Virus record (IMG/VR): IMGVR_UViG_3300031885_000041
Coordinates: 1-42,477 of that record
DNA: 42,477 nucleotides
Reading direction: 5' to 3' (one strand)
Origin: a virus
The first letter of the stretch is position 1, and each line of letters begins with the position of its first letter. Both the position numbers and the translations under genes were made by a program. This document shows, piece after piece, positions 1 to 31,207 of this stretch. A model generated the notes under the pieces. The model was given only the letters and a program-made list of their open reading frames with translations. It did no database searches and had not been told where the DNA came from.

Positions 1-2001
1 ATGCTTTTTACCAGCCTCATCCTCATACCACAATGTTGGGATCATTTCCCTAGTTATTTTCATCGCACGCTTGGAAAGCGAAAATCTTGTTTGCGCAGGT
101 TTCGGCATCAGCTGTTTCTCGCGTTGCATAACCTCTTTCGCTTTAGCCTCGGCCTCACCTTCTCCAAAAAAAGGCCCTTTCCCAATCTGCTCTTCACTAC
201 GTTTGGCACCACCTATGTGCGCTCCTTCATGCGAAATTGTCTCTATGAGGGCCATTTTGACCGCTTCGGCAAGTTGCTTCGGATCGATCTGTCCACCAGA
301 CGCACCGAGTTGCTGCTTCGCTATCTGTTCAATCCTGCTTTTAAATATATGAATCTCGTGGGGATCTTTATCAGGTCCCATTTGCACATGGCCAAGTTCA
401 CCAGCACCCCCGCTAGGATGCACAACAACCTTCTTTACCTTCATTAAAGTGTCGGGAGCGATTCGCTGGACTTCTTGGACTGCTGCCTGTACGGCAGGAT
501 CAAGAGGCTCTATAATCACCTGCATCGCCCTTTTGCTCAGTTGGAATCTGTTTGCGCTTTTCATCGGTCCGAACCTCTCCATAATCTTCTGCGTGGCTGT
601 TTCTTTTGTCAGAATTTCACCTTTTTCAGCAAATTCATCTTCAAGCTCTTTTAAGTAGGTCATAACCTCTTTGATTTTCGGTCCTGGCTTGATGCCCAGA
701 AGACCCATTATCTCTTCACCGTTGAGGATCGAAACCTTTGCTATTGGGATTTTCTGAGATTCTTCCAATTTGCTTCTCAATTCAGGCACGTAATTTTTGG
801 GAGGCAGAGTTCCGAGAGCATCGGCTTCCGCCAATTCAAGGACCGCTTCGACGATTTCGTCGCCGATGTCCCTGACAAATTTACGAAGAGCTTTTGGCGA
901 AGCTGCTGGCAGGGCGATAGGTCTCATATGGTTTTCAACTATCTTCCTGACCGTCTTAATAATGCCATTGTCGAATTTAAGTCTTCTTAAAACAGCTTCT
1001 GCTATTTCACCGCTGACCTTCTCATGACCAAAAAATCGTATCTTGCCATCTATAAACTCCAGTGATTGCGGCTTTCCGATATCATGGAGGAGTGCAGACA
1101 ATTGCCCGACAACAGTTGGAGGAGCGTTGGACAGCACCAGCAGGGTGTGCTTATACACATCCCCCTCCTGATGATTGCTCGGATCATGCTTGATACCTAT
1201 CAATCCATAAACTTCTGGAAGGACATAGTTCAGCAAACCCGTCACTTTCATCAGCTGGATCGCCCGATCAGTCTTTCCGAGTTTCATCATCTTAATCAGC
1301 TCTTCTTGTATTCGCTCCCACGATATTTTTTGGATCTGCTCAGCATTGCGCCTGACAGCTCTGAGCATCGAAAGCGGAATATCCCAACCATACTTGACCT
1401 GAAATCTGATCAACCGCATCATCCTGAGAGGGTCTTCCGAAAACATCTTGTCAGGAGAAACCTGCGGATGACCACGCAGAATCCCCTTTTCAATATCCCC
1501 CTTGGACGAACCTGTAAGATCCACTATTTCGCCAGAAGACAGATCCCTCAGGAGCATATTCACAGTAAAATCCCTGCGCTGCACATCTTCTGGCAAAGTG
1601 GCAAATTCGGTAGCCCTTTGCCGAGAAGTAGGATCAGGATATGTTTCCTTCTGAGTATCTGCTATGTCTATTTCACCACCTTTCGTCTTGAAGAGTTCAT
1701 CCTTGTGTGTAACATCCTCCTTGAAACCAATGTGCCATATTGGATAGGCCGCACCAAGCTGTCTCGGTGTTGTAGTTTCTTCAGGGAACATATGTTTCAC
1801 AAAATGCGCAAGCTGTTCGGCTCCGCCCTTCATTTCTACAACGATGTCCAGATCCTTCGACTCTTTCCCCATCAGGGCATCTCTTTCATATCCCCCGACC
1901 GAGAAAACCTTCTTCTCAAATGTGGTTCCTGGTATTATATACAGGAAGAGCCTTTGTATTTCCTGCTCCGCCATGGATGCGCGCTTGGATAAAAAGGACA
2001 T
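1..2001 (-). CDS. CCA-adding-enzyme/HD protein fused to zincin-like domain; polyprotein-like, runs off left edge
   Basis: Open from 2001 to base 1, 667 codons visible, no stop. Start ATG follows GGAG. Residues 9-450 are a class II tRNA nucleotidyltransferase/poly(A) polymerase: GG at 36-37 with R40-D41, metal-binding D50-x-D52, RRDFTVN at 142-148, DPLRMMRLIRF at 190-200. An HD phosphohydrolase domain follows (LLHDIGK around H306-D307, later H326 and H358). Residues 493-646 hold H591-E592-x-x-H595 followed by GEGEAEA at 613-619, the pattern of a small zinc metallopeptidase. The octapeptide [F]-x-L-S-K-R-A occurs at residues 2-8, 485-492 and 639-646, exactly bracketing these two parts; a third part begins at 647 and is cut off. 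Known for the family: addition or repair of the tRNA 3' CCA. Inferred: the SKRA sites separate mature products. The transferase call is firm; the protease activity is a motif-level guess. Confidence 0.85.
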   Translation of the reverse strand, partial: MSFLSKRASMAEQEIQRLFLYIIPGTTFEKKVFSVGGYERDALMGKESKDLDIVVEMKGGAEQLAHFVKHMFPEETTTPRQLGAAYPIWHIGFKEDVTHKDELFKTKGGEIDIADTQKETYPDPTSRQRATEFATLPEDVQRRDFTVNMLLRDLSSGEIVDLTGSSKGDIEKGILRGHPQVSPDKMFSEDPLRMMRLIRFQVKYGWDIPLSMLRAVRRNAEQIQKISWERIQEELIKMMKLGKTDRAIQLMKVTGLLNYVLPEVYGLIGIKHDPSNHQEGDVYKHTLLVLSNAPPTVVGQLSALLHDIGKPQSLEFIDGKIRFFGHEKVSGEIAEAVLRRLKFDNGIIKTVRKIVENHMRPIALPAASPKALRKFVRDIGDEIVEAVLELAEADALGTLPPKNYVPELRSKLEESQKIPIAKVSILNGEEIMGLLGIKPGPKIKEVMTYLKELEDEFAEKGEILTKETATQKIMERFGPMKSANRFQLSKRAMQVIIEPLDPAVQAAVQEVQRIAPDTLMKVKKVVVHPSGGAGELGHVQMGPDKDPHEIHIFKSRIEQIAKQQLGASGGQIDPKQLAEAVKMALIETISHEGAHIGGAKRSEEQIGKGPFFGEGEAEAKAKEVMQREKQLMPKPAQTRFSLSKRAMKITREMIPTLWYEDEAGKKH

Positions 2002-2016
2002 TTACTTCGCTCCGCG

Positions 2017-2370
2017 TTATTTCGGTTTCTGAGCACCTAATGGCAAATTTTGCTGTTGTATCCCAATATTTTGAGATAACAGCCTTGATAGTTCCAATAA
2101 TACCTGTTGGGTAAAAGCTGGATTTAGACCATTCAAAAGGTTTTTTGTGAGCGAAATTCCTTGGCCAATCGCACTACTTGGAGGCATTTTTTTCATAGAA
2201 AGCGTCCCTGGGTGTAATCTAACAAGCTTCCCTCTTAATCTTGATATAAACTTCTGTCTGCTCTTAGGTGGTACTCTATAAAACAGGAACTGTATAATCT
2301 TAAACAGCGATTCCGCCGTTTTCTGGGCGGCGGAGACCTGCGCTCGTTTGCTCAATGGGAAATCGCTCAT
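2017..2370 (-). CDS. Small basic protein with N-terminal SKRA motif
   Basis: 117 residues, family not recognised. The start at 2370 is preferred over one at 2400 because GAGG lies six bases upstream and because it places the motif DFPLSKRA at residues 3-10, near the N terminus as in the neighbouring fused protein. The remainder is basic and probably helical (KFISRLRGKLVRLHPG), with a Gln-rich tail. It lies between the left-edge fused protein and an 87-residue gene whose 3' end overlaps it only in the discarded upstream region. If SKRA is a cleavage site, about ten residues would be removed. No catalytic motif is visible. Confidence 0.7.
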   Translation of the reverse strand: MSDFPLSKRAQVSAAQKTAESLFKIIQFLFYRVPPKSRQKFISRLRGKLVRLHPGTLSMKKMPPSSAIGQGISLTKNLLNGLNPAFTQQVLLELSRLLSQNIGIQQQNLPLGAQKPK

Positions 2371-2380
2371 GTCAGCCTCA

Positions 2381-2644
2381 TTATTTCGATTCCCTAGCAC
2401 GTTTGGATAGTGTAAATCTCGCCTTTCCCTTTAACGGCTTGATTTCGCTGTGACGATCTTCTTTGACCATATCAGCTGGAATACCGTAGATCTGGGCTAT
2501 CGGCTTGACTTTGTAATAGGTTTCTTCCTCATCCGTGACGACATCCACGACCTCGAACTTCATTCCTCCAAAACCTTTCAATTCAATCCTGTCTCCCACG
2601 GAACGGGGACCGTCAGCTAGTTTAAAAAGTGGAAACCTAGGCAT
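2381..2644 (-). CDS. Small protein with C-terminal SKRA motif
   Basis: 87 residues, not recognised. The start at 2644 has AGGAG eight bases upstream; an upstream in-frame extension to 2779 would overlap the previous gene by over 130 bases and is rejected. The N terminus reads MPRFPLFKLADG, which looks like a degenerate form of the RFPLSKRA motif. The middle (GDRIELKGFGGMKFEVVDV) looks like a small beta-rich fold. The C terminus ends RFTLSKRA followed only by RESK, so here the motif lies five residues from the end of the chain. That position argues that the motif is recognised in its own right and is not only a linker between domains. Confidence 0.75.
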   Translation of the reverse strand: MPRFPLFKLADGPRSVGDRIELKGFGGMKFEVVDVVTDEEETYYKVKPIAQIYGIPADMVKEDRHSEIKPLKGKARFTLSKRARESK

Positions 2645-2645
2645 A

Positions 2646-3482
2646 TTATTTTCTCCTACCAAACAACTCTTCCTTCGTCGCCGCTGATGGGAAATCCCTT
2701 TCTGTCGCCTCAGGCGGAAAATCTCCTTGGGTTGGTTGACGGACAGGCTGAACTGGCTGAGAAGTGGATTGCGATCCACTAGTCGGACGCTGAGTTGTAG
2801 ATTCCCTAAAATACTGCTCAGCTAACTGCCTGGCCAAACCAGGATTCCTTGTCCTTATAATATGTTTGAGCTGCTGTGGCGTTAGTTTTTTAAGTTTGTT
2901 GATATCAAGACCTATTTGCTGATATGCTGTCATAAGATCGGCATCTTCGGCCTTCTGGGTCGGTTTACACTTTTCAAAACTATGAAATTTACTAGGCTCT
3001 TTTAGATACTTTTTCGGCAAACCGCCTACCGCAGTTCGCACAGCATACTCTTCAGCTTTGTTCGCATTATGGTTCTTTCTCTTTTTCGCTTGTTCTAGGG
3101 CTACCTTATACGACTTGCGGAATTTATCAATAATCTTCTGCGGAGCCTGCATCTTTTTAAGTTGTCGCATCCACTTAGCAAAAGACCTACCAGGCTCCTT
3201 CTTCTTGACGGCTGTTTTCTTAAGCAGCTCGTCTATCTCGTCGGCAGCCTCACAAAATCCACGCTTGTCAAGGTCATTCGCCAAAGCAGCAAAGGCCGAC
3301 ATATCATTAGCGAATTCAAATTCGTCGAGTGGGGTGAGTTCTGTGTTTTCCTCTTTCGGACTCAGAGCTTCCTTATGTTTACTAAGGATATCCTCGATTT
3401 GCCCCGCAAGCTCTTTGAGTTGTTCTTTAGAAAACAAATGGAGAGACCCCATTAGGTCTTCCAATGAATCAAAATTTCTCAT
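2646..3482 (-). CDS. Hypothetical virion-block protein with helical hairpin motif
   Basis: 278 residues, not recognised. N-terminal 1-60 is acidic and helical. Residues 63-91 are one of the clearest copies of the recurring hairpin (core LANDLDKRGFCEAADEIDEL). After it come a Lys-rich helical segment (about 92-150), a region with KLTPQQLKHIIRTRNPGLARQLAEQY (written here as KLTPQQL through LAEQY, about 195-222), and a disordered Ser/Gln/Pro tail. Its ATG overlaps the stop of the upstream gene (TAATG), so the two are probably translationally coupled. No transmembrane segment or catalytic motif is visible. Confidence 0.75.
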   Translation of the reverse strand: MRNFDSLEDLMGSLHLFSKEQLKELAGQIEDILSKHKEALSPKEENTELTPLDEFEFANDMSAFAALANDLDKRGFCEAADEIDELLKKTAVKKKEPGRSFAKWMRQLKKMQAPQKIIDKFRKSYKVALEQAKKRKNHNANKAEEYAVRTAVGGLPKKYLKEPSKFHSFEKCKPTQKAEDADLMTAYQQIGLDINKLKKLTPQQLKHIIRTRNPGLARQLAEQYFRESTTQRPTSGSQSTSQPVQPVRQPTQGDFPPEATERDFPSAATKEELFGRRK

Positions 3483-4449: not shown

Positions 4450-4511
4450 TATGATACTCCCAATTAACAAGATGATGCTAGGTTATTAATAGTATTTTCA
4501 GCACCATATGT

Positions 4512-7500
4512 TTATTCATCTTCCTTTGCCACCATCAATAACCACCTGTTTCCATCAGTATGAATCAGGTTATATGTCTTTTTTTCCTTTTTGCCCTTTA
4601 ATCTAAACATTATTTTAGATTTACCCCACTCGATTTCCTCATATGTCCCTGAATCATAGACTTCTACCTTCCCTGAACCATACTCGCCAGTGGGAATCTC
4701 CCCTTCAAAGCGCATATAGGAAATTGGATGATCTTCTGTTTTCACCGCTAGCAATTTAGTCTTCCCGTCAGGCAGTTTATGTTTCGGAACCGCCCACGAA
4801 GACATTGCCCCCTCATCATTCTCCAGTCGCAGATCCCAATGTTGACCAGCCCTGTCCGCGAGATGATTCTGTATCACAAACCTGTGTTTATTCTTTTTTT
4901 CAACCTTGCCCTCTGGTTCGGAAGTTTCGTCAAATTCGCGCTTCTTTTTGTACGAAGATAACGTATCCCTAGCATCACTTTTAGGCGGTTTTGACAATGT
5001 TTTTAAATATTCATTATATTCCTTATCCAAATCTTCCATAACCACCTCTATTACCTTTTCCGTCTTTTTTTCTCTTTTCGGCTTATTCTTTTTATATTCA
5101 TTATATTCCCTATCAAGATCCTCTTCAATTACAGTGATCACTGGACTCATCTCTTCTTGTGTATCTACACCATGATGAAGTATCTGTCCCTCGATAACTG
5201 CCTTCATCTCTTCAGGATTTTTAAGACCCTTTAGCATATTATTCAGCTGACTCCAATATGTTGGGTCATCGTTGTGCCCAGCAGCTTCCATACCAAACTG
5301 ATAAAACATATCATCATCATCACTATCTTTACGCAGATTCTTTATATGTTCGATTGGAGCCCAATAATATTTGCTCGGCATAATAAGTGCTTTCACTAGT
5401 ACATATTCATCTGGCGCAAACATTGATCCTTCAGCATTTAAAGATGCCCGGTGGAAATCATGACCATATATCTCAGAAATTCTATTAGATTTCCCCTTAA
5501 GTAGCTTTCGAACCGTCTCTGAGTTTTGTATGGCCGTTGTACCATCTAAAATACCTGGTAATTTACTATTTATGTCCCCAAGAAGTACAAGATCAGCGGA
5601 TGTCAATTTCCAGACACCAAGGACGCGAAGCAATTTAACATTTGACTCAGATTTTCCTCTAAGAGGCTTCCCGCCACGCATCTTCGGTTTTAATCCACAC
5701 TCAAACCCATTAAAAACCGGCCCAGCTTCTTCAGCGTCGATGGTTTTTTCTTCTATTTTTGAAACAAAATACGCCCCCCCATCACTAAAATGTGGAATGC
5801 CATCCATCTCACTATCTGTTACCCAATCATCTAGATGATATTTTTCATAACCACCCCGCTCAAGCAACATTTTATCTACCCACTGCTGAAGTAATGGCAA
5901 ATAAATTTCTTCACGTTTTGTGGGTAATAATGACTTATTTTTAGATGATTTGTTTTTTATAATAGGTTTATTCTTAATCTTTCCATCATCATCTTTTACA
6001 AATTTTTTGCCAAATTCACGACCAGCAAGCCATCCCACAAACAATTCGGAATCTATGGCCGAAAAATCTCTCACAACATCATATAATATAAGACGCCTTT
6101 GTAGACTAATATATCCCTGGTCATGCACAATACGATCTATTGGTCTATTTTTTTCTATTTCTGTAGATATGTATTCGTTTGTTAAATTATACACATCCCA
6201 GTATTTCTTAAGAAATATATTTCTAGCAAGTTTGCCAAGCTGCTGATAAGCAATCTTTTCTTCCACATCATTATCGGTACCAATATTTTCCATTGCCTCT
6301 TGAGGGACACTACGTTCGCCTTTAGGAATCCACTCACTTCTTTGATATGGTTTCCAAAAAAGGCCGCCTCTCTGCTCATATCCTTTGCCCACAGCATCTC
6401 TAAGAGTAAAATGCACATTGTCGTGTGGACATATAAACGGAACATCAAGCATCCACTGTGGAGGCTTTTGTCCTCTTTTTTGATCATTTTCTGACAAGTC
6501 AGACGCTTTTTGTTCAGACTTGTATTCGCCAGGGGGCATAATTTCCATCTTTTCCATTAAAGCGGTTTGTGCTTCTATTCCCGCAGGTGTTTTCCAAAAC
6601 GAATTGTTCCAATCTATGGAGGTTAATGGTACTCGCTGGCCAGGACACGAATCATTTGGACACCATGTGTGCATATAGGGCACATTTCTTTGAGCCCGCA
6701 ACTTATTTATTTCATTAGATATATCATTTTCTTTTTCTTTCATATTAAGCATAACAAGCTTTAATGCCTCATATTTTTTTTTACTAGTTTCAATCTTTTC
6801 AGAAACTCGTTGCTTTTCTTGTTCGGTTTCTACATCTTCAAGACTTACACCAGATTGCATAATCTGATGTTTTATTTTATCAATTTCATCATTCAATTTT
6901 AAAATTTTAGCTTTAACATCAGATAAATCCACACTTTCTAGCTGTTCTGCCCTTTTTTGGCATTCCAGACAAGTCCATAAGTTTTTTTCAACAGTAGTTC
7001 TTTTCATCTTAGAAATATCGGCATTTTTTGACTTTTGCGCCTTACAAATCGCACATACCGGATATCTCACTTCTTTATGGTCATTGTCTTCAGCGACAAT
7101 TTTAGTCATTTCCCTGCCAAGTGTTTTATAACAACAGGCATCTATAGGTTCCATATTAAACCCTTTCGCGAAATATTCTTCTAAAATCTTGGCTAAAATT
7201 CTATTTATATCTTGGACATATTTTTGAGTTTTTGGAAGATCTTCTACAAGCATACCTCTTTTAATAGCTTCTGCATCATTTTCATCAAACATTCTAAACG
7301 GCGTATCTTCTACGGTTTTTCCATATTTAGATCTCTTTTTTCCTGCATAATTTCTACCACTATTTATTTTGAACCATTTTGCGCCAATAGTCATAACAAT
7401 CGCTGGTAGAATCCACGATTGTATTAGCTGTTTTTCATTGCGCAACAACTCCCACGCCTTTGGATTCATAAATAATTTGCGTAATGACGGGCCTTCACTT

Positions 7501-10500
7501 AAAGCTTCTGGAGTAAAATACAAACGCGCTTCTTCTGACATCTTTGGTATTGTCGTAATAATTGGCCATCGCACCAATACATTTCCCTTATCATCTGCCA
7601 GTGGTTCAACCTTACCAAAAGCCGATGGACGAAGATGTTCTACTGGTTTTTCCAACAAATCTTTACCAATGTCTTCATCTTCTCCAGCTAACATTTGACT
7701 AACAATATCTTCCTCATCACTTTTTGGTATGGAAAAATCTTTTTTAGACTTCTCAGTTTTAGGAGATACCTCGGTCTTAGAAGGCATTTTAGTTTTAGAC
7801 GCAATATTATCAAGAATTTCGTCTATTAGCTGATCACGAACCAACACCTTTTTAGTTTTAGTGGGTTTTGTTGGTTTTACAGATGTTTCAGATTTCGGCT
7901 CAACTATATCCTTGAAAGTTTTTTCCGTGGATTTGATACGAACCTCTTTGGGCTTTTTTGGCATTTCAACGGGTTTTTCTGTTGGTTTTTGTAATAACTT
8001 ATCAATAGGTGGTTGTTTTAAAACAGGAATTGCAACCACTGGCACTGGAGATTTTTTAATAGGTCTTCTTGTTGCCTCCTCTTCCTCTTCGGAGCCAAAA
8101 CCTAAAGATTCTTCTTCACCTTCCGTCTCGGATTCTTCGGCCAGTTCTGGATATTCTTCCCAAAACTTTTCCACATTTTCGTCATCGATTCTAGCGGCAA
8201 TTTTCCAAATCATATTGAGTCGCTTATAAGCTTCTACCTCTTGTGGGATTTTAGTACCAGTGGGATCTATAATAGTATTTGTATAACTACCAGGCACAAG
8301 ATCTGCAGCACGCTCAAGCCTATCTTGTAATCTAGAGGAAAGATCTACAAAAGCGTGGCCATATGTGGTAATTTCAGGTTTTTTACTTTTACTGCGATAA
8401 AATGTTACAAATCCGCGTGCATATCGATCATCATCATAATTCTCTAAACCGGCTCTCATTGCCAAATCATAATGATGAACCTGCTTCCTGCTAGTTTTTC
8501 CCAATGCGTCAGTTTCAACACTTTGTGTGAAATATAACCTATCACCATCCCAAAGCCAAATATATTCTTCAACAATATCACTAAAGGCCGACTTAACTAA
8601 CCCATCCCTTACTGACATTGCAAATGACCCATCATCGGACATATTATATGATCCCACATTTCCAGTTGGTGAAACTGTTGTACCGCCAGTCGGTTGTGAT
8701 ATCAACGCATCTCCTGGTGGCCAAGTTGGATCACTTATATTCTTTCTGCCCCATGTGTCATTTCCATAATCATCATCGTCTTGAACATCAGAAAGAGGCT
8801 TCTTTACTTTTCCATAAGTTTCTCCAAGAGACCACGGAACACGAAGACTGCCCTTGTTATGTAAGGTACTAACATCACTGCGCATACCACTACCCTTAAC
8901 AACGCCCGTAGTAACATCATCCCAATCTTTATTAAATTCGTCAAGCAATTCCTTTAACTCTTTGCGTAAGTCATTGATTTGTATCTCGCGTTTTAAACCA
9001 AATTCAATATGTATTCCACTACCACCACTTTGATAAAGCATAGGAATACTGCCAAATTTCTCCTTGATTTTGCCAACAAGCTTTCGTGCATATTTTTCGG
9101 CCTGCCCAAATTCAAACTTACCGTGAATATCTAAATCAACAAAGCCAAGATTGGTTTTGGTTTCAAATACCTCGTGAATGGCAAGAAGCCTCCGCTTTGT
9201 CCAGTAAAAATAATTGTGCGGATCTTCATTCTTTTCGGGATCATCATTTGTTATAGTAATTTGCTTTCCATCGTGATTTCTCTTTAAAATCTTTTGATTT
9301 TTGCCTATGCCAAGATAAATAAGAATTGGCTTTCCCTTAATTCGTACCATGATTTTCTTACGAATATCAGATTTTTCATAATGACTACGGATCTGCTTTC
9401 TTGTTAATTTTACATCATCCTTATCTATAAGAATCTCATCCCACTTCTTATCACCCTCATCCTTTTCATCGTCTGCCTTATTGCGCACAATTTTCTCAAA
9501 TCTTACTAAATCATACTTATGTTTTCCAATCTGCTTTTTCTGTTCTTCGGTCAGTTCGTCTAAAAATGGATGATTCTCAACTCCTTCAAGTTGCACTACA
9601 CTCATCACCTTTACTTTATGTCCCCACGGAGTTATAAACTCTTGTCCCTCTTTATATTTCCCACGCTCACGACTAATGCGAGTGGTGTAGATGCCTTTTC
9701 CACTTTTTAGTTTATACTCAAGTCCCTTATATTCTTCCTGTGGAAATGGAACTGTCGGCAAATCGTCAGCCTCATTGATGTTTTTAAAAAGCTCAAATCT
9801 AATAACAACAAAACGACAATTTTTACCAAATTTCTGTTCTAATGATTTTGCTATATGCTTGCCAAAAGCCTTCTGAATGCGCCCAAGGCTCATAGTTTCT
9901 TTAGATGTTATCTTAATATCGCACACACGAGAACCCGAATAGGTCATACATTTAACAACTTCATCTATTTTTACAGGGACATCATTTGCCCTTATCGTCA
10001 TTTGTCTTTTGCCAGACTTAATCTCTTCAGCGTATTGTCCTGGAAAATACAGTGTTCCAGCAACATCTTTATATGCGGCCCGCTTAGACAACATTATCGT
10101 AGTGGCCTTTTTTTCAGGAATTTGGGGCCAACGTTTTATAATATGTTTTTCAACTTCATCTTTTAATAATGGTTTTAACTCGCTTTTGTCAATTTTTCTA
10201 CTAAATTCTTCTTCATATTCAGTTCGTATTTCTTCTAATAAATCTTCATTTTCATTGAGTTCTTTCTGTAGCTCTTTTAATACAATGTCACGCGCTATAA
10301 GTTGTTCATTTGTTAAAAATGGGACAGTTAGTGTCTTTTCCTCATCAGACCATTCTTCAGATGCGCGTTTGCTAAACATAAAAGTAGCCACTCTGGTTCC
10401 ACCAAAACCACTCATACCGTCATTTGGGGGGTAATCGCTAGCAATGCCAGTGACTTTTGTAATCATTTTATTGGCACGGACTAGGTAATGCGTTTGTCCC

Positions 10501-12818
10501 CTAGAAAATGGCTTTTTCCTAAATAGGAAATTCTGTACAGCGCCGACGCCAGCAGCATTGGAAATCGCTATTAATTGATAAATGTTATAGGATCCCGAGG
10601 CATTAACGTCATATCCAGATTTTTGTACCGAATTAATAACAGAATTTACTCTGTTCATAAAATCCTGTTGTGCTACGCTATCTGCCACCCTGCGCACATC
10701 TTTATTGATTATAACATTCTTTCTGGAGAATGTCCTCTGGAATTTGGAATATGTGTCAGGATTGTTTTGGGCCACAAACAGCTTCACTATGCCATTACGC
10801 ACTACCGCGTCAGTTATGAACTGACCAACTAGCAACTTCAACTCGCTTATCATATATGGAGTATCAACATTAAGCCCCATCTCTTTCAATTTGGCAGTGT
10901 CGATAGCATATCCAAGATACTTGTCACCCACTTTTTTAACAACGCCTGGTAAATTACCAGGACTGTATTTAATAGTTGTCCCTTCCTTTCTGGCAACTAC
11001 GGCTTTTGGATTTGCCCGTACAAATTCCTTTACTGCCGCTTCATCGACAGGAACCCTTACCCAAATATTAGTTCCACGCATTTTTTTGCTAAAATTCAAC
11101 CACGCTTCCCCAAGTTTGCTATATTCTTCAGACGATATGCCAGTTGCACGCTGGGCTTCAGGATGTGCTGCCAACTTACTTACGAAAGATCCAAATTGAA
11201 CCTGCGTAGATCCAAATGATGTATCAGAATCGCTTACAGTATAACCTCCACCAGATTCTAAAGTGCTAATGATTTGATATGCCTTTTGTATATCTACACC
11301 ACGCACATCTTTCAATCCGGTGAAATTCGTCGTCGGCTGGACGATGCCCTTTGGCCCAAACTTTTTCTCAAGAACGCTCAGAACTTCATCGGCATAGGCA
11401 GCGCGTTTCGATAAGAAGATGGACGCTTTCTTAATTTCTTCACCTGTAATATTTTCCTTTACCTTGGCGGATTCCATTTGTTTGTCTGTGGGCATCTTTA
11501 CCTTAATCGTCTTCTCTTTTTCAAAAAATGCCTTCGCTAACCTATGATTGCCATCGACAATCTGATTTTTATACATAAGTATTGGATAACTAAGATCCGC
11601 ATCACGAATCATTTCCATCTCGCCAGCATATTGTTCGGGATTGTTCAAAACATCCTGTGGACTGTATCCCCAGGATTTTTCAGCGAGTTGGGGGCGCAGG
11701 CTTTCCACCGGCATATTCCTGATCGGATTGCTTTCTGTGAGATGCCACAATTTTTCGATATTGTAAACATTCCCCTGTTCATCATCATATATCTGATTAA
11801 TCTCCCACTCCTTATCTTCTGATTTATTGCTTTTTGCAAGTTCAAAATTATCTATATGTTTAACATGAAATTCATTCATTGTGGCGTCTTTCGGTTTCTT
11901 GTCTTCACGGAATCTAGAAAAGCTTTGATGTCGCAAACCACCAGGCAAACGCTCTTGAAAATTTATTTCAACCACAAAAAGACCCCTTTTTAATTTACTC
12001 TTAATCGCTTCTTCATCTTTTTTTGAGAAATTACTAATTTCGCTTATATGATAGAGCTTACCCTGATAGTATTGCCCAAACAACGCCTTTAACTTACCCT
12101 TATCCGACATCTCGTATTCATATACGACATAGTCATCGGAATCACTCTTACCAAGTCCGGCACCTTTAAATTTATACATAACATCTTTAGGCTTTGGTTC
12201 ACCTTTTCCAATTTCTTTATAATGATATGGTTTGTCTTTAATTTTAAGAACTATTCCCTCACCACCACTATCAACTGCCTCCTTCATAACATTTTGCCAT
12301 TTTAAAAATGGAAACTGTTTTGTAATTTGAATTCTAGATGAAGGCTTTACCAATTTTTCTAAGATGTTGCGACGAGTTGAAAATGATTCTTTTGTAATAT
12401 TTTTACCACTAACCCACAAAATATCATACAGGAATATCTTTAATTCACCTGGCAAATTTTTTGCCACTTCTTGTGAGTTTTTTGGACTAGAACCGGCCAA
12501 AGAAGTTACCTTTCCCACGTCTTGTTTTCCATTATAAAGATATACCAATTCTCCTTCTACTATTGTATTATTTGGTAAAAAATTCAAAGCATTTGTTAAT
12601 GTTGGAAAATTGTCGGTTTTTTTTTCGCCCTTTCGGCTATAAATATTGATCTTATTATCCGATTTAATAATCTGTAATTTCCAACCATCGTATTTGATTT
12701 CAACAACTATGTCTTTTTCGCTATATGTTTCAAGCAATTCTTCTGGATTATTTATCTGCGTCAATCTCATAAGAGAAATTGGTTTTAAAGATGATCTTTT
12801 CAAAATTAAAAAGGTCAT
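4512..12818 (-). CDS. Giant 2768-residue LigD-like multi-enzyme protein: DNA ligase, ParB-like, ASCH, AEP polymerase, zinc regions, 3'-phosphoesterase
   Basis: One uninterrupted frame. Residues 15-313: ATP-dependent DNA ligase with nucleophile K42 (KYDG), EGIVLK at 187-192, YKFK at 215-218 and a LigD-type OB domain. Residues 345-445: ParB/sulfiredoxin-like, DGNHR at 422-426. Residues 474-819: unknown. Residues 820-914: charged helices. Residues 920-1010: ASCH domain (KRQMTIR); 1028-1110: second PUA/ASCH-like domain. Residues 1136-1345: AEP/LigD polymerase with D1228-x-D1230, SGGSGIH ending at H1270, LRVPWSL at 1325-1331. Residues 1400-1735: unknown part then Lys/Pro/Glu-rich linker. Residues 1740-2545: unknown with Cys pairs 1922/1925, 1950/1953 and 2053/2058. 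Residues 2645-2765: LigD 3'-phosphoesterase (H2652, H2660, D2662, R2664, H2697, Y2701). SKRA motifs end at 473, 819 and 914. Start overlaps the HNH stop (ATGA); the ribosome site is weak. Domain calls are firm; the joint role in end joining is inference. Confidence 0.9.
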   Translation of the reverse strand: MTFLILKRSSLKPISLMRLTQINNPEELLETYSEKDIVVEIKYDGWKLQIIKSDNKINIYSRKGEKKTDNFPTLTNALNFLPNNTIVEGELVYLYNGKQDVGKVTSLAGSSPKNSQEVAKNLPGELKIFLYDILWVSGKNITKESFSTRRNILEKLVKPSSRIQITKQFPFLKWQNVMKEAVDSGGEGIVLKIKDKPYHYKEIGKGEPKPKDVMYKFKGAGLGKSDSDDYVVYEYEMSDKGKLKALFGQYYQGKLYHISEISNFSKKDEEAIKSKLKRGLFVVEINFQERLPGGLRHQSFSRFREDKKPKDATMNEFHVKHIDNFELAKSNKSEDKEWEINQIYDDEQGNVYNIEKLWHLTESNPIRNMPVESLRPQLAEKSWGYSPQDVLNNPEQYAGEMEMIRDADLSYPILMYKNQIVDGNHRLAKAFFEKEKTIKVKMPTDKQMESAKVKENITGEEIKKASIFLSKRAAYADEVLSVLEKKFGPKGIVQPTTNFTGLKDVRGVDIQKAYQIISTLESGGGYTVSDSDTSFGSTQVQFGSFVSKLAAHPEAQRATGISSEEYSKLGEAWLNFSKKMRGTNIWVRVPVDEAAVKEFVRANPKAVVARKEGTTIKYSPGNLPGVVKKVGDKYLGYAIDTAKLKEMGLNVDTPYMISELKLLVGQFITDAVVRNGIVKLFVAQNNPDTYSKFQRTFSRKNVIINKDVRRVADSVAQQDFMNRVNSVINSVQKSGYDVNASGSYNIYQLIAISNAAGVGAVQNFLFRKKPFSRGQTHYLVRANKMITKVTGIASDYPPNDGMSGFGGTRVATFMFSKRASEEWSDEEKTLTVPFLTNEQLIARDIVLKELQKELNENEDLLEEIRTEYEEEFSRKIDKSELKPLLKDEVEKHIIKRWPQIPEKKATTIMLSKRAAYKDVAGTLYFPGQYAEEIKSGKRQMTIRANDVPVKIDEVVKCMTYSGSRVCDIKITSKETMSLGRIQKAFGKHIAKSLEQKFGKNCRFVVIRFELFKNINEADDLPTVPFPQEEYKGLEYKLKSGKGIYTTRISRERGKYKEGQEFITPWGHKVKVMSVVQLEGVENHPFLDELTEEQKKQIGKHKYDLVRFEKIVRNKADDEKDEGDKKWDEILIDKDDVKLTRKQIRSHYEKSDIRKKIMVRIKGKPILIYLGIGKNQKILKRNHDGKQITITNDDPEKNEDPHNYFYWTKRRLLAIHEVFETKTNLGFVDLDIHGKFEFGQAEKYARKLVGKIKEKFGSIPMLYQSGGSGIHIEFGLKREIQINDLRKELKELLDEFNKDWDDVTTGVVKGSGMRSDVSTLHNKGSLRVPWSLGETYGKVKKPLSDVQDDDDYGNDTWGRKNISDPTWPPGDALISQPTGGTTVSPTGNVGSYNMSDDGSFAMSVRDGLVKSAFSDIVEEYIWLWDGDRLYFTQSVETDALGKTSRKQVHHYDLAMRAGLENYDDDRYARGFVTFYRSKSKKPEITTYGHAFVDLSSRLQDRLERAADLVPGSYTNTIIDPTGTKIPQEVEAYKRLNMIWKIAARIDDENVEKFWEEYPELAEESETEGEEESLGFGSEEEEEATRRPIKKSPVPVVAIPVLKQPPIDKLLQKPTEKPVEMPKKPKEVRIKSTEKTFKDIVEPKSETSVKPTKPTKTKKVLVRDQLIDEILDNIASKTKMPSKTEVSPKTEKSKKDFSIPKSDEEDIVSQMLAGEDEDIGKDLLEKPVEHLRPSAFGKVEPLADDKGNVLVRWPIITTIPKMSEEARLYFTPEALSEGPSLRKLFMNPKAWELLRNEKQLIQSWILPAIVMTIGAKWFKINSGRNYAGKKRSKYGKTVEDTPFRMFDENDAEAIKRGMLVEDLPKTQKYVQDINRILAKILEEYFAKGFNMEPIDACCYKTLGREMTKIVAEDNDHKEVRYPVCAICKAQKSKNADISKMKRTTVEKNLWTCLECQKRAEQLESVDLSDVKAKILKLNDEIDKIKHQIMQSGVSLEDVETEQEKQRVSEKIETSKKKYEALKLVMLNMKEKENDISNEINKLRAQRNVPYMHTWCPNDSCPGQRVPLTSIDWNNSFWKTPAGIEAQTALMEKMEIMPPGEYKSEQKASDLSENDQKRGQKPPQWMLDVPFICPHDNVHFTLRDAVGKGYEQRGGLFWKPYQRSEWIPKGERSVPQEAMENIGTDNDVEEKIAYQQLGKLARNIFLKKYWDVYNLTNEYISTEIEKNRPIDRIVHDQGYISLQRRLILYDVVRDFSAIDSELFVGWLAGREFGKKFVKDDDGKIKNKPIIKNKSSKNKSLLPTKREEIYLPLLQQWVDKMLLERGGYEKYHLDDWVTDSEMDGIPHFSDGGAYFVSKIEEKTIDAEEAGPVFNGFECGLKPKMRGGKPLRGKSESNVKLLRVLGVWKLTSADLVLLGDINSKLPGILDGTTAIQNSETVRKLLKGKSNRISEIYGHDFHRASLNAEGSMFAPDEYVLVKALIMPSKYYWAPIEHIKNLRKDSDDDDMFYQFGMEAAGHNDDPTYWSQLNNMLKGLKNPEEMKAVIEGQILHHGVDTQEEMSPVITVIEEDLDREYNEYKKNKPKREKKTEKVIEVVMEDLDKEYNEYLKTLSKPPKSDARDTLSSYKKKREFDETSEPEGKVEKKNKHRFVIQNHLADRAGQHWDLRLENDEGAMSSWAVPKHKLPDGKTKLLAVKTEDHPISYMRFEGEIPTGEYGSGKVEVYDSGTYEEIEWGKSKIMFRLKGKKEKKTYNLIHTDGNRWLLMVAKEDE

Positions 12819-15405: not shown

Positions 15406-15408
15406 GTC

Positions 15409-18400: not shown

Positions 18401-18525
18401 ATAGTGCCTCTGTTAATCTCTTCTTCAATTGCTCCCTTCCTATAATCAGACAAACCACCAGCCAATTTTGGAGAAACCCTAATAATTTGGGGCCCGGTTG
18501 GTCTTGCGACTCTTCTTGACATCAT
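15409..18525 (-). CDS. Portal protein interrupted by an intein
   Basis: 1038 residues before splicing; removing residues 356-720 leaves a 673-residue portal, a normal size for large phages. The portal forms the dodecameric ring through which DNA enters the head. Evidence: residues 155-355 match the N-terminal portal region (FFLLHPIVRNVITLHATYPI, GDLALEHWKMGEVFPFCEFD), and after the intein come an alpha/beta part (YRATAEDLEYFRQ), MIPPAVIDQESSVYASAS at 807-824 and LEVLRQRYFNFRNMIARWL, typical of this family. The C-terminal 80 residues are Gly/Pro/Met-rich and probably disordered. Its ATG overlaps the TerL stop (AGAGGTGA site), as expected for a TerL-portal pair. An unusually long disordered N terminus (1-150) precedes the core. 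Confidence 0.85.
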   Translation of the reverse strand: MMSRRVARPTGPQIIRVSPKLAGGLSDYRKGAIEEEINRGTIVEGGTYESSHLKRGAMPTPSATDENKISRGAWLSAQDGVSMGNARRSSVTGSNQISPFGAVVHSEAYKQQMSENIRAESIRKIAASVGTSGGGAATSSGSSVERLAPEVYSPLFTMANLNLPRDRTTVNAWIRNFFLLHPIVRNVITLHATYPISKINLKCHDPKVRVFFEDMMEEADALTMLGDLALEHWKMGEVFPFCEFDEGTGKWSRFIIQNPDYIHVKKAVLGGEPLISLRPDQVLQRLVLSNNPADVQLRQQIPPNIIHAVRTGQDIRLDNFNVSHLKMLSSPYDVRGTSIIVSAFKDLMLYDKLRECYSTDTEVLTKDGFKFYDEVTDDDVIGTFNSNTNQLEYQKPVDRFKKHYDGDMYRFSGKKIDMLVTPGHRMWLAQSRSHGNGYHNFDFIEAQNIKKGYFYKTRCVVDWQGKEISEVDVCGYKIPAEDYMKILGHLVAEGCISYNTSTYQYGVGCNQSVKSEHIDSIRNSMTMLAGYCDKHLGIRFSENTRGFSLNNHCSMENWKISNKALSNHFADEIGTNSHNKHLPQWVKELSPELLDILLTALSEGDARINPSKYGTSSIGYRYSTISKQLADDIQEIAFKCGYAPLVDRAKNGQGKLYWSVAWSNTVYGCFPIIYGNRKDSGNGGGATFRKTPYSGEVFCFEVPNGLFVTRRNGKITIQGNCKYAQADGLVNPITIVKVGGTGDGDYRATAEDLEYFRQMLEEAQYDKDFKLVTHAGVDITRVGASGQVLEISEDMNLIIKNIYTALMIPPAVIDQESSVYASASIGLEVLRQRYFNFRNMIARWLTNKVFAPISEVQGFFEYKDGKKRLIVPEVEWNQMNLYDLSDYIQNITGLVGSKQASVQTLYRSLGLNYDDEKVKMRQERIDTAIVQREEQALATMSLSELRALDPEKPISEPAGEQQPEGGAGMAMPPEAGGLAGAPGGGGMPPMGGGGLGGGLPELAPPPAPGGAPGAGAPEIPGGTPPLGPGAGAGGSPGV
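16366..17460 (-). mobile_element. Intein with LAGLIDADG homing endonuclease inside the portal gene
   Basis: 365 residues in frame. It begins at Cys356 (CYSTDTEVLTKDGFKFY, block A), has block B VTPGHRMW with the conserved T and H at about 421-424, two LAGLIDADG-type helices (ILGHLVAEGC near 486-495 and LLTALSEGDAR near 597-607), block F SGEVFCFEVPNGLFVTR, and ends ITIQGN at 720 before the +1 Cys721. The residue before the terminal Asn is Gly where most inteins have His. That is tolerated in some families but can slow C-terminal cleavage. Both endonuclease motifs keep an acidic residue, so the element may still be able to home. Confidence 0.92.
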
Positions 18526-20378: not shown

Positions 20379-20390
20379 AATCTATCAAAT

Positions 20391-21527
20391 TTACCTTTTA
20401 GGTGCCGGAGAGTGAAATATTTCGTTATTATCACTATCACCTTCTGTAACTACAAACACAGCATAACCCATTCCAGCAAGTTCATCTCCCGCGTCGGGAA
20501 GATCCCTTTTTTCTTTTTTGAGGCACCTTTTAATATATTTGCCCAAATCTTCATCATGGACATCTATTTCCTCACGACGCTCATCCTGTAACATCTTTAG
20601 GATAGCAGGAAAGTCTACATGACCTTCACGAGATTTACACAAATTGTCTATAAAGATTTTGACTTTTGGATACTTTTTCAATGCTTTGGGAAGTGATACT
20701 TCTTCTTCCACTTCTTTTGCCACTTTTCTGATATGTCTGTCCATAATATTAGCACTAACAAAATCACCATCATCCTCAAAAGCATTTGCTAATGACACGA
20801 GGGTGTTGATAATTTCAGCTTTACTTTTCTTATCCTTTTCCATTTTTGATTCCATATCTTCCAAAAAATCATAATACTTTTCATGCTCAGTTAGATGATC
20901 CTTCGCAATCTCCTTTCTAATAGCCTTATCAGGCGTATGTTCCTTTTCCACTTTAACACCCTTTTCAATCTGCTTTTTATCAAAATCCGAATCGGGACAG
21001 CCATCTGCCAGTCCACCAGAAAGTTTATCATTAGCCTCATTCTGCATTTTTTGATTTACTATGTGTGTAACCATCCTATCAACATATTTTGAAAATGTCA
21101 AATTTGGTTCTTTTTCTTTTGCCACATCAAATTCAGCATCTAATGTTATGTGAAATTCTGAATCCGATTCATAAGTTTTCATCACATTGTCAAATAATTG
21201 CCGATGTTTGTGAATATCCATTACGCCTGTTTGTGTAAGTTCATCATCAAATTCTTCCTGTGAGCCTTGTGAAAGTTTAGCACCGGCACTCTTTTCGGGC
21301 TGGCCGTCATTTTGTTCAGACTGTCCCAAAACAACATCTAAGCCAATGCGTTCGCGCAACTCTCTGACACGCGCCTCAACACTATGTTTATCTTCCTTTA
21401 TCTTAAAAAGGCTCTTAATGTCATCAAAATTCCCGCCCTTTTCAAGCTCGCGGTCGGCGAAGTCCCTGAGCCAATCAGACTGGACGGCTGGGCGCATATA
21501 TTCGTAATCGTTTCGATTAAATGACAT
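20391..21527 (-). CDS. Hypothetical virion-block protein with helical hairpin motif
   Basis: 378 residues, AGGAG site. It is strongly acidic and helical and not recognised. N-terminal MSFNRNDYEYMRPAVQSDWL is followed by coiled-coil-like segments. Residues 240-270 carry the recurring hairpin (core LANAFEDDGDFVSANIMDRH). The C-terminal part (KALKKYPKVKIFIDNLCKSR) looks like a small globular helical domain. It lies immediately upstream of terL. No enzyme motif seen. Confidence 0.7.
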   Translation of the reverse strand: MSFNRNDYEYMRPAVQSDWLRDFADRELEKGGNFDDIKSLFKIKEDKHSVEARVRELRERIGLDVVLGQSEQNDGQPEKSAGAKLSQGSQEEFDDELTQTGVMDIHKHRQLFDNVMKTYESDSEFHITLDAEFDVAKEKEPNLTFSKYVDRMVTHIVNQKMQNEANDKLSGGLADGCPDSDFDKKQIEKGVKVEKEHTPDKAIRKEIAKDHLTEHEKYYDFLEDMESKMEKDKKSKAEIINTLVSLANAFEDDGDFVSANIMDRHIRKVAKEVEEEVSLPKALKKYPKVKIFIDNLCKSREGHVDFPAILKMLQDERREEIDVHDEDLGKYIKRCLKKEKRDLPDAGDELAGMGYAVFVVTEGDSDNNEIFHSPAPKR

Positions 21528-21560
21528 ATCAGACTCCTATTCAAATTTACTTAAATGTTT

Positions 21561-22600: not shown

Positions 22601-22615
22601 ATAATTCCTCCTACA

Positions 22616-23062: not shown

Positions 23063-23065
23063 AAT

Positions 23066-24538: not shown

Positions 24539-24547
24539 ATTCGTCTC

Positions 24548-25315
24548 CTATCCCTCTAACAGGTTTTGAATCATGTGCTTTTTGGCTATTTCTGCAGTCA
24601 TGAGCCTGCTCAGGGGAATAATTGGTAGCAGTTTGTATTCGGACAGCATATCCATGGATTTCTGCGAATCCATTCTTAATATCTGGTTAACCTGTTTTTT
24701 AATACTGCTTAGTGGCAGTGTGCTGAGACCACCCCTATATTTAATTATAGCATCCTTTAGTTCTGGATCAACTACCAAATCAAATTTAAGTGCTATCCTC
24801 ACAGCTCTCAAAATTCTGCGAGGGTCGTACCCAATTGTTAATTCTGGATTTACTGGAGTCCTTAAAATTTTGTTTTTTGTATCATCAAAAGCTTTGTTAG
24901 TAATATCAATTGGCTCTTTTGCAAAATCCATAGGTTGTAGAATTGTGTTTATTGTAAAATCCCTACTAAACATTTCTTTTTGCAATGCAGTCAATTCAGA
25001 CATTCCATTTTTAGCAAGTTCTGCCTCTATGCCGGGCAGTATAAAATTGTTGGAAAAATCCAACCTAATGTTTTTAAAATCCAAACTACTATGCCCATCA
25101 TCATATGACCTAAATTGAGCATCAGGCCATTCTTTACTAGCAAGCATTGCGAGGGCAAAAGAACCCTTGTCGCCAGTAGTTATATCTACATCTTTTACCT
25201 GCGTAGCAACACCAAACAACTTATCTCTTGGTAATCCACCAACAACATATGGCTCTAAAAGCCCATTTTTTTTGGCTAGGTCACCCAATGTGTTCAGTAA
25301 CTCCGAAAGCAACAT
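24548..25315 (-). CDS. CCA-adding-enzyme/poly(A)-polymerase-type nucleotidyltransferase, short
   Basis: 255 residues. The head domain is intact: VVGGLPRD at 24-31, metal ligands D42-x-D44 (KDVDI), SRDFTINT at 117-124 and DPRRILRAVRIALKF at 164-178. These are the class II tRNA nucleotidyltransferase motifs, including the region that selects C and A. The chain ends about 75 residues later, so it lacks the HD domain seen in the other copy (at the left edge) and most of the tail that grips tRNA in cellular enzymes (usually 370-450 residues). It may act on tRNA 3' ends or another RNA. It is placed among virion genes with no tRNA gene nearby. The family is firm; the substrate is open. Confidence 0.87.
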   Translation of the reverse strand: MLLSELLNTLGDLAKKNGLLEPYVVGGLPRDKLFGVATQVKDVDITTGDKGSFALAMLASKEWPDAQFRSYDDGHSSLDFKNIRLDFSNNFILPGIEAELAKNGMSELTALQKEMFSRDFTINTILQPMDFAKEPIDITNKAFDDTKNKILRTPVNPELTIGYDPRRILRAVRIALKFDLVVDPELKDAIIKYRGGLSTLPLSSIKKQVNQILRMDSQKSMDMLSEYKLLPIIPLSRLMTAEIAKKHMIQNLLEG

Positions 25316-25317
25316 AA

Positions 25318-27667: not shown

Positions 27668-27751
27668 TTCGACAGCTCCTAAAAAAAGACCCGAAAGATA
27701 CCTGCATTCGTAAAAGCGCACACAAGTACCTAGCGGGTGGAAAGAACTCTA

Positions 27752-28552
27752 TCAATATATGCTGTTCAAGACATTCTGACGACTATCGTAAACCCGCATA
27801 GGAATACCACCAAAATCACTGGTTGGTGGGGTCTGTTCCGCTATACTTCCACCCAGTACTCTTTGCCCTTGATAATTTACATATCCCGCTTCATAATTGT
27901 AGACTTTTCCGTCAAGTGGGCATTGATAAATATGTTCTGCAATGCGCGCAGATTGTACGCCCACATGATCTGGACAATATCTTGTTGACAAATTCCCCTC
28001 ATGGGGTGGCATTATTGGCTCAGCTTCAACAGATGACTGGTCTCCACGCATCCTTGGAATATATGTAGCACATTTTACAAGTAATTCAGAAGTTTTATCT
28101 ACCATATCAGCAAGACTGCAAAATCCATTTTCATCAAGATAATCTGCCATTTTAGTAAGTTCATTGATAGAAATAGTTGTAATACACAAGTTATGCCCAG
28201 CTACAAGTCCATACAAGAGTGACTGTTGTGGAACTTCTGTCGCGGTGAGGATTATTTCGTCTATGGTGTCTGCAACATTCTCATTACCACGCCGATCAAA
28301 ATCATCTGCAAGTACAATCAAATCTATATGCAACTCTTCGGCAGTTTTAGGCTTAAACGCTGTTATAACCCTATTAATTATATCACCAAATGGTTGAAGT
28401 CTTTTAAAAAGTTCTTGTCTAGTGATTTCCACTTTCTTTAAATCACTGATCGGCCCTTGGAGATCGCGTATAAGTTTACTCACTTCAGCATATTGCTGAC
28501 TAAGTCCAGTCAGAAGTTGCTCCGTAGTAGCATCCTGCGCGAACCTTTTCAT
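27752..28552 (-). CDS. Hypothetical protein with two helical hairpins and C-terminal zinc-binding domain
   Basis: 266 residues. Residues 76-105 (core LADDFDRRGNENVADTIDEI) and 129-162 (core MADYLDENGFCSLADMVDKT) are two copies of the recurring hairpin. The C-terminal domain (about 188-250) has RYCPDH, then YQCPLDGKVYNYEAGYVN and GGSIAEQTP, and looks like a small zinc-bound knuckle. Its start overlaps the upstream stop. The two-part layout suggests an adaptor that uses the hairpins to join a shared assembly; that is inference. Not recognised as any named family. Confidence 0.7.
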   Translation of the reverse strand: MKRFAQDATTEQLLTGLSQQYAEVSKLIRDLQGPISDLKKVEITRQELFKRLQPFGDIINRVITAFKPKTAEELHIDLIVLADDFDRRGNENVADTIDEIILTATEVPQQSLLYGLVAGHNLCITTISINELTKMADYLDENGFCSLADMVDKTSELLVKCATYIPRMRGDQSSVEAEPIMPPHEGNLSTRYCPDHVGVQSARIAEHIYQCPLDGKVYNYEAGYVNYQGQRVLGGSIAEQTPPTSDFGGIPMRVYDSRQNVLNSIY

Positions 28553-30237: not shown

Positions 30238-30289
30238 TTTATTGCCTCCAATAATTTTGGACATTAGTCCAAAAGTTTTCTGTGTAGTT

Positions 30290-31207
30290 TTATACTTCTT
30301 CTTCGTCCGTTTCCGACAGAACATCTCCAAGCGTCATATTAATAGTCTCAAGTTTCTGTAACAACAAATCATTTCCAACAGTCGCATCTTCGGCTCTTTT
30401 AGATAGTGGGAATCTTACTTTCGATATTTTTGCACTTGTCATAACATCAGGCACTTCAATATCTTTAAGGGCTCGTTCTAACCCCGCACGATCCTCTGGA
30501 GTTATCATCCAAAGATCCGTTTCGATTTCTTCATTGGACGATGGAATGGTTTTTTTCATAACCATTTCCGACAGCTCCTCATCGGACGAATCCTGCTTTT
30601 TTTCTTTAGATTTTGTGGCAATGTCTTTCAATATTTCACCGATGTCTTTCTGAACTTCGGTTTTCTTCTTGTGTTCAGCACGCTTACGGTCCTGACGGAA
30701 CTCACTACCAAGTCCAAGTGGATCGCTAATTTTTGTATCAAAGATACCAGCCGCGCTGAGTAACTCATATTTTTCTTTTGGAATGCTAGAAACGAATTTT
30801 GAAACAAAAGTATCATCTGTGGAAAGTTTTTCTTGCATAGTTTGACGAAACAATTCGACATCTTCTGTTGTATTAGCATCAACAATACTAGCAGCTAATC
30901 TGTGTATGGGGGTATCTTTATATAATACGGTAAGATTACTTCCCTTGGCATCTAAAATAACACGCCAATCAGAAGACTTTACAACCTGCTGCTCATCTTC
31001 AGGCAAATTATAAGTCCTAACCAAAAATTCATTACCATCATCATCTGCCTGTATCTGCCACAGGTCTTCTGTACTGTCACCCTTAAGGCGGAAAAGATCG
31101 AAAGCAACACGCACTAATCTATCCTTATTTCCCTCTAAAGGAAGCCTGTTTGGATCTGGCATAACAACTTTGGCTACATCAGACCAGTCAAGTTCAAATT
31201 TTACCAT
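30290..31207 (-). CDS. Hypothetical protein with SKRA motif near C terminus; first gene after the intergenic region
   Basis: 305 residues with a strong GGAGGA site. The N-terminal 110 residues look globular (LWQIQADDDGNEFLVRTYNL, WRVILDAKGSNLTVLYKD). Charged helices follow (165-215) and then VRFPLSKRA at 264-272, leaving an acidic 33-residue tail. It is the first gene after the only large noncoding gap, so it probably heads the virion operon. If SKRA is cut, the tail is a removable C-terminal peptide. Function unknown. Confidence 0.72.
   Translation of the reverse strand: MVKFELDWSDVAKVVMPDPNRLPLEGNKDRLVRVAFDLFRLKGDSTEDLWQIQADDDGNEFLVRTYNLPEDEQQVVKSSDWRVILDAKGSNLTVLYKDTPIHRLAASIVDANTTEDVELFRQTMQEKLSTDDTFVSKFVSSIPKEKYELLSAAGIFDTKISDPLGLGSEFRQDRKRAEHKKKTEVQKDIGEILKDIATKSKEKKQDSSDEELSEMVMKKTIPSSNEEIETDLWMITPEDRAGLERALKDIEVPDVMTSAKISKVRFPLSKRAEDATVGNDLLLQKLETINMTLGDVLSETDEEEV

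Follow-up and report, generated by a model that had tools for sequence, protein, structure and literature searches.

A recurring SKRA peptide in an uncultured huge phage is probably a form of a Lys-x-Ala recognition sequence of the head-maturation protease

Introduction

The IMG/VR record IMGVR_UViG_3300031885_000041 represents part of the genome of an uncultured huge phage, in which the tetrapeptide SKRA, preceded by hydrophobic residues, recurs in several proteins; an earlier note on this DNA had proposed that the peptide is a processing or sorting signal. The fragment was analysed at its full length of 42,477 nucleotides (referred to as the window) and compared with related phages, and the question that it raises is what could recognize such a peptide. 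The comparison indicates that SKRA is one form of a wider aliphatic-x-Lys-x-Ala motif (phi-x-K-x-A), whose constant positions are an aliphatic residue at P5, Lys at P3 and Ala at P1, counted back from a predicted cut after Ala. SKRA is thus very probably the lineage-specific, strong form of the sequence that is recognized and cut after Ala by the head-maturation (prohead) protease.

The SKRA Sites of the Window

A six-frame scan placed SKRA at nine in-frame positions, all of which are located on the minus strand and distributed over five proteins, as the earlier note had reported; a tenth copy (2995-3006), within a short stretch in the wrong frame, can be attributed to chance. No other 4-mer recurs as strongly among the window proteins. 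In shuffled window proteins, SKRA occurs on average 0.24 times and [FI]x[LF]SKRA 0.002 times, compared with 8 and 7 observed copies in the automatic gene set; the automatic gene caller omitted the open reading frame (ORF) 2381-2779, home of the ninth copy, and both counts exclude it. Across the copies, every one of the six Arg and four Ala codons occurs, along with four Ser codons, so that a copied DNA repeat could be rejected as their source and, as had been claimed, it is the peptide that recurs. The description as an octapeptide [FI]-x-[LF]-SKRA needs to be amended, since the pattern as written has seven residues and MSFLSKRA, with Phe at P6, does not fit; the other eight copies do.

Three of the sites are found in a polyprotein encoded by ORF 1-2001 (minus strand), which consists of a tRNA nucleotidyltransferase and a domain containing the sequence HEGAH and is cut off by the contig edge. 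MSFLSKRA (1978-2001, SKRA 1978-1989) forms its N terminus, with a predicted cut after the Ala; RFQLSKRA (526-549, SKRA 526-537) separates the tRNA nucleotidyltransferase from the HEGAH domain, which starts with MQVIIEPLDPAV; and RFSLSKRA (64-87, SKRA 64-75) lies past the HEGAH domain by the contig edge. DFPLSKRA (2341-2364, SKRA 2341-2352) is located near the N terminus of ORF2 (ORF 2017-2400), whose start is the ATG at 2365-2367 or slightly upstream. In ORF3 (ORF 2381-2779), RFTLSKRA (2396-2419, SKRA 2396-2407) is positioned four residues short of the C terminus. If translation of ORF3 starts at the ATG at 2642-2644 (MPRFPLFKLA), its N terminus carries a second phi-x-K-x-A site, LFKLA (2615-2629, minus strand, found by translation), and the protein is thus bracketed by sites. 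The giant protein described below contains SIFLSKRA (11400-11423, SKRA 11400-11411) between its ligase/ParB-like region and the c-d module, TFMFSKRA (10362-10385, SKRA 10362-10373) past the d module and TIMLSKRA (10077-10100, SKRA 10077-10088) directly ahead of the ASCH domain. The last copy, RFPLSKRA (30392-30415, SKRA 30392-30403), lies near the C terminus of ORF 30290-31207. According to the six-frame scan, SKRA is absent from all window proteins that were recognized by eye as products of replication genes, namely DNA polymerase III alpha, RecA, an SSB-like protein, a RuvC-like protein and DnaJ.

Module Junctions in Related Phages

A search of viral contigs with the whole giant protein as query gave no pattern match, and relatives were reached via the portal protein of the window. 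In this way, 229 related stretches were gathered, of which 80 loci on contigs of up to 361 kb were retained. The window portal is homologous to gp14 of Bacillus phage G (E 1e-72), and portal, head protease and capsid protein of the group are homologous to phage G gp14, gp19 and gp27, respectively; the protease and the capsid protein also have homologs in Bxz1-type mycobacteriophages. On these homologies, the contig is assigned to the phage G-like group of uncultured huge phages. The gene order in the closely read relatives is portal, giant ligase protein, HEGAH-domain polyprotein, protease-scaffold protein and capsid genes, from which the head-protease gene missing from the window is expected just past its left edge.

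The near relatives are enriched for SKRA but not for permuted 4-mers. In the window, G001 and G002, the latter two being relatives, the head-module proteins contain 18 copies versus 0.9 expected, and all other proteins of the three together contain one copy versus 0.9 expected. In 300 kb of G001, all five SKRA copies are found within two adjoining head-module genes between portal and protease. Domain mapping distinguished ligase, ParB-like, c-d, ASCH, polymerase-like, zinc-rich, g and phosphoesterase modules, whose order varies among the relatives and some of which are encoded by separate genes, and SKRA is present at many boundaries of the reordered modules. The ParB-like module, for example, follows the ligase in the window and is located at the C terminus, after SKRA, in G001; the HEGAH domain, which is internal in the window, has MFYLSKRA, MIPLSKRA or MTDFLLSKRA as its first residues in relatives.

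Other forms of the motif occupy the same junctions: LVKCA, LQKWA, LSKHA or MYKRA ahead of the ASCH domain, where ISKRA and VSKRA are also found in relatives, and VHKEA, ICKEA, FTKEA, MIKDA, MNKTA or LIKKA ahead of the ORF2 domain. In total, phi-x-K-x-A precedes the ASCH domain in 12 of 13 cases and the HEGAH domain in 9 of 9, and follows the ligase in 6 of 8; ahead of the phosphoesterase it was found in just 2 of 7. Among 42 ORF2 homologs, 33 have phi-x-[KR]-x-A ahead of the domain and the remaining 9 a K-x-S form, while 4 of 216 control windows inside the domain contain the motif. The equivalent boundaries of related phages had been set beforehand as the refuting test, and the motif is retained there while flanks and module order change. 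In an AlphaFold2 (AF2) model of residues 440-1125 of the giant protein, based on an alignment of nine relatives, the three SKRA sites (model residues 31-34, 377-380 and 472-475) lie beside or between two confident domains at a predicted local distance difference test score (pLDDT) below 50. However, one third of the model is equally low in confidence, and linker placement alone is therefore weak support.

The Wider Motif

The statistics of the motif were determined for a distant set, made up of 57 loci with 404 non-redundant proteins. In this set, SKRA itself is not enriched (3 versus 3 expected), whereas [VILMF].K.A is found 770 times versus 225 expected (3.4-fold) and K.A 1431 times versus 846. 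The register is specific, as KA, K..A and K...A each reach about 0.94 of expectation, and so is the Lys: its replacement by Ala, Ser, Thr, Asp, Asn, Gln, Arg or Glu reduces the enrichment from 3.41 to 0.87-1.29. With a following Gln or Ser, the excess rises to 10-fold ([VILMF].K.AQ) and 6-fold (.K.AS). Pro is under-represented at P4, P2 and P1' of 741 distant phi-x-K-x-A sites (0.14, 0.10 and 0.27, respectively), and Gln and Ser are enriched at P1'; an alignment of 48 SKRA sites has information at P7 and P5 and almost none on the prime side. Along the genomes of G001 and G009, the motif clusters in the head region (190-240 kb and 100-160 kb, respectively). It occurs across all kinds of head proteins and is not limited to the five first noted. 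The idea that SKRA marks a cleavage site is supported by the comparison as far as a cut ending at Ala at module boundaries is concerned; the proposed dibasic Lys-Arg signal is not, because both the Arg at P2 and the Ser at P4 can be replaced.

The same test was calibrated with phage T4, where the known [LI]xE motif occurs 63 times versus 37 expected in cleaved head proteins (1.7-fold, z 4.9) and reaches 1.15 elsewhere, and [VILMF].K.A has no clear excess (7 versus 5.3). The head genes of phage G contain 21 [VILMF].K.A sites versus 7.6 expected (2.8-fold, z 5.1), and no comparable excess was found in two non-head regions of phage G (21 versus 18 and 8 versus 10). A T4-type specificity for Glu at P1 could be rejected for these head genes, since [LI].E reaches only 0.94 there, compared with the 2.8-fold excess of K-x-A. 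In the window, G001 and G002, phi-x-K-x-A is also 2-fold enriched in the group of proteins sorted as 'HNH'; this group is no clean control, because some head proteins were mis-sorted into it and homing-endonuclease-like proteins have a separate FIKEA/FIKDA feature.

Two further features were observed. A helical-hairpin-like segment, ANxLDxxGxxxxAxxIDxxI, recurs in many unrelated head proteins, often beside K-x-A sites, with a frequency of about 3-5 per 10,000 residues in head proteins and 0-0.28 in non-head proteins. It is present in the window in ORFs 20391-21527, 27752-28552 (two copies), 2646-3482 and 13710-15146, as well as in head genes of L133 and G001, and may be a scaffold-binding or excised spacer module. 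In addition, G009 (L179-L182) encodes at 280-342 kb, distant from the head cluster, a second group of small proteins, whose short N-terminal leaders have K-[LFI]-A as their last residues (MNVDKLLKIA, MEYFYNRIFKLA and MNKYSSLLNKVNLFYKLA) and which are possibly further capsid-targeted proteins.

Head Protease, Portal and Capsid Protein

The corresponding cluster of the relatives includes the gene for a head-maturation protease: phrog_18299 was detected in 9 of 9 members, and the proteins match the NCBIfam prohead protease fusion model (4.5e-9) and phage G gp19 (E 4e-25). In most relatives, the protease itself starts with MxIxKxA. Residues H147 (in DH) and S198 (in VSMG) are invariant in nine relatives and present in phage G gp19, and by analogy with gp21-type enzymes they are candidate catalytic residues.

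The portal protein of the window (15409-18525, minus strand), the homolog of gp14, contains an intein, and inteins are also found in the protease genes of L162 and L164. Several phi-x-[KR]-x-A sites (LKRGA, ISRGA, IRKIA) are located in its N-terminal arm. One of these, ISRGA/W (18307-18321, minus strand), corresponds to LKRSA/W, LNRGA/W or LQRGA/W in relatives. The N-terminal extension of the relatives' capsid protein ends in IVKYA/S or LVKYA/S. The capsid gene is split in G001 (187659-192135) and in G009, with homing-endonuclease-like genes between the pieces.

The capsid protein of phage G has 282 residues according to its gene and 255 in its mature form, for which N-terminal sequencing data are available (Hua et al., PMC5646251). 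The length of 255 residues and a mass of 28.2 kDa fit only a cut after Ala27 (VALA/QAMANPIR), which supports Ala at P1 and Gln at P1'. A description of cleavage motifs in phage G or Bxz1 was not found in a literature search.

Polyproteins and Other Cargo

The giant modular protein (4512-12818, minus strand) has 2768 amino acids and was dissected by domain mapping, profile searches and Foldseek. Its modules are an ATP-dependent DNA ligase (PF01068, 1.2e-29), a ParB-like module, the c-d module, an ASCH domain confirmed by Foldseek, a LigD/AEP polymerase-like module, a zinc-rich module and a LigD 3'-phosphoesterase (PF13298, 4.2e-28). The matches to a primase-polymerase are weak (PF21686, E 0.083, below the cut-off; PriS, E 0.18). 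The c-d module had been considered as a lytic transglycosylase on account of the sequence ESGG...SFGxxQ, and this assignment is unsupported by Foldseek or profile search.

SKRA polyproteins of the relatives (L133:16562-18739 and L154:6856-8877) also contain tyrosine-phosphatase-like and weakly supported peptidoglycan-binding domains. A second, smaller nucleotidyltransferase-like protein is encoded in the head cluster of the window (24548-25315); it is a relative of the enzyme of ORF 1-2001 and contains no SKRA. Between the giant ligase protein and its upstream neighbor lies a homing-endonuclease-like gene (12815-13672; zinc-finger and HNH-like by eye), and related genes are abundant in the relatives.

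Proposed Mechanism and Alternative Explanations

The general site of the head protease would consist of Leu, Ile, Met or Phe at P5, Lys at P3 and Ala at P1, often followed by Gln or Ser at P1'. Scaffold, portal, capsid and inner-head proteins would carry it mainly in N-terminal propeptides and linkers, and in the lineage of the window it would also divide fused modules such as DNA ligase, ASCH domain, LigD-type phosphoesterase, tRNA nucleotidyltransferase and HEGAH-containing domain. The polyproteins would be built into the prohead and cut there into separate enzymes, which would stay with the DNA and be delivered at infection. Sequence comparison shows the motif with its register, its limitation to head genes, its retention at homologous and shuffled junctions and the homologous protease in the gene cluster of the relatives; the role of this protease in the cuts, the prohead as their place and the packaging of the enzymes are inferred.

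Several observations weigh against this mechanism. Cleavage in these phages is predicted from sequence, and the AF2 model of the protease has a pLDDT of 40, with no PDB sequence match of value. The sole laboratory site found, that of the phage G capsid protein, has an Ala deduced from the reported length at P1 and Ala instead of Lys at P3, so that either K-x-A does not cover all sites or the capsid protein is a special case. In portal and protease, a conserved phi-x-[KR]-x-A is followed by Pro, which makes cutting unlikely, and homologs sometimes have K-x-S or SKRH in place of the motif. The proteases of L160, L161 and L164 begin with K-x-G (MVLLKLG, MFVKIG and MSFIKLG) instead of K-x-A, which points to loss of the N-terminal site or to tolerance of Gly. 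Least well explained is the C-terminal site of ORF3, which would free just four residues; as ORF3 also has the N-terminal LFKLA, the protein may lose both of its ends, as T4 Alt is reported to do. Finally, G001 has no other DNA ligase that could be found, and the polyprotein ligase may therefore serve replication instead of being packaged.

The last point leads to the alternative that the giant SKRA protein is a cytoplasmic replication or repair polyprotein, which is cut outside the head by the head protease or another one and whose location in the head cluster is incidental. Its domains are indeed of DNA-repair types; however, the recognized replication genes of the window lack SKRA, and the prohead is where such head proteases act (PMC10052503), so we consider this explanation unlikely. 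Even lower is the probability that SKRA is an uncut docking or cargo-loading tag, which binds scaffold, portal or shell without involvement of the protease. Such a tag would account for the frequent position at the extreme N terminus (MFYLSKRA, MIPLSKRA), the copy close to the C terminus of ORF3 and the unlike functions of the proteins that carry it, and T4 capsid-targeting sequences do steer proteins into the prohead (PMC5694885). It would not account for the sharp end of conservation at the Ala, the depletion of prolines around the bond, the interchange of SKRA with other phi-x-K-x-A forms or the reported trimming of the phage G capsid protein after Ala, and a pure tag would be needless at each junction of fused modules. 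Least probable is that the wider signal merely reflects amphipathic helices or head-protein composition: L-x-K-x-A suits an amphipathic helix and some copies are located at the ends of the recurring hairpin, but the residue-substitution and register controls reject it, the excess is absent from non-head proteins, and the three sites of the giant protein fall into low-confidence stretches of the AF2 model.

Targeting and cleavage could also be combined, in that the cargo enters the prohead by means of a T4-like capsid-targeting propeptide, which the head protease subsequently removes, with SKRA defining the cargo class and plainer K-x-A sites the scaffold and shell class. This model refines the proposed cleavage by the head protease and does not exclude it. 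It is compatible with everything seen: N-terminal leaders of 8-12 residues ending in SKRA or K-x-A match T4 propeptides in size (PMC5694885), and SKRA is nearly limited to cargo polyproteins of one subclade. However, targeting is proposed by analogy with T4, and SKRA and plainer K-x-A swap at the same junctions, which counts against two distinct functions; we regard the combined model as plausible, leaning to the doubtful side. With slightly more confidence, still short of an even chance, we suggest that the phage G-like lineage makes a virion enzyme kit in the form of polyproteins, which are loaded into the prohead, cut at FxLSKRA by the Lys-x-Ala protease and injected, and that the kit mends or circularizes the genome and prepares the host. 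This kit would tentatively comprise an end-joining ligase, phosphoesterase, polymerase parts, ASCH domain, tRNA nucleotidyltransferase, phosphatase and HEGAH domain.

What is most likely new is the specificity of the head protease for Ala at P1 and Lys at P3, together with the unusual arrangement of the enzymes in polyproteins. If true, a large clade of uncultured huge phages would share a cleavage code with Bacillus phage G, which has the largest documented phage capsid (T=52; PMC5646251). Hundreds of unannotated proteins would become predicted head or cargo proteins with predicted mature ends, and DNA-repair enzymes encoded as a cuttable polyprotein in the head gene cluster would represent a testable route by which an end-joining kit is carried into the cell.

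Comparison with Known Systems

With its ligase, its phosphoesterase and its weak match to a primase-polymerase, the giant protein resembles bacterial LigD, the ligase of non-homologous end joining. In contrast to LigD, it is far larger and has other modules in between and putative cut sites between the modules, and no match to Ku (PF02735) was found in six relative records, which may be incomplete. Herpesvirus assemblin cuts after Ala, commonly before Ser, although its P2-P4 residues differ from the motif described here, and phage prohead proteases are reportedly homologous to it (Cheng et al. 2004, as cited in PMC10052503).

Among phages, T4 is similar in many respects: gp21 recognizes a short P3-x-P1 motif, (L/I)xE, in N- and C-terminal propeptides of many head substrates, enzymes such as Alt are packaged, and the motif leaves the same statistical signature in the same test. 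In T4, one short N-terminal peptide serves both for targeting and as a cleavage site, and the propeptides have 6 residues in Alt and 10-20 in other proteins (PMC5694885). The leaders MFYLSKRA, MIPLSKRA, MSFLSKRA, MIKDA and MNKTA have the size and place of T4 capsid-targeting sequences and would be removed likewise. However, T4 cuts after Glu with an aliphatic residue at P3, while the site deduced here has Ala at P1 and Lys at P3, and several enzyme modules are joined here in one polyprotein. The giant phages phiKZ (SxE) and SPN3US (AxE) also follow a P3-x-P1 rule and have long multi-site propeptides and ejected enzymes, and Ser is preferred at P1' of the SPN3US sites; their P1 residue, in contrast, is always Glu (PMC10052503). 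The characterized head proteases of giant phages and T4 thus cut after Glu, whereas for the proposed one the cut bond would follow Ala, with Lys at P3.

The closest counterpart is the head cluster of Bacillus phage G (Donellivirus gee). It differs from the system described here in that the annotated DNA ligase gp236 is encoded outside the head cluster and the capsid site lacks Lys at P3. Nevertheless, portal, protease and capsid protein are homologous, K-x-A is enriched in the head genes, and the reported trimming of the capsid protein by 27 residues fits a cut after Ala.

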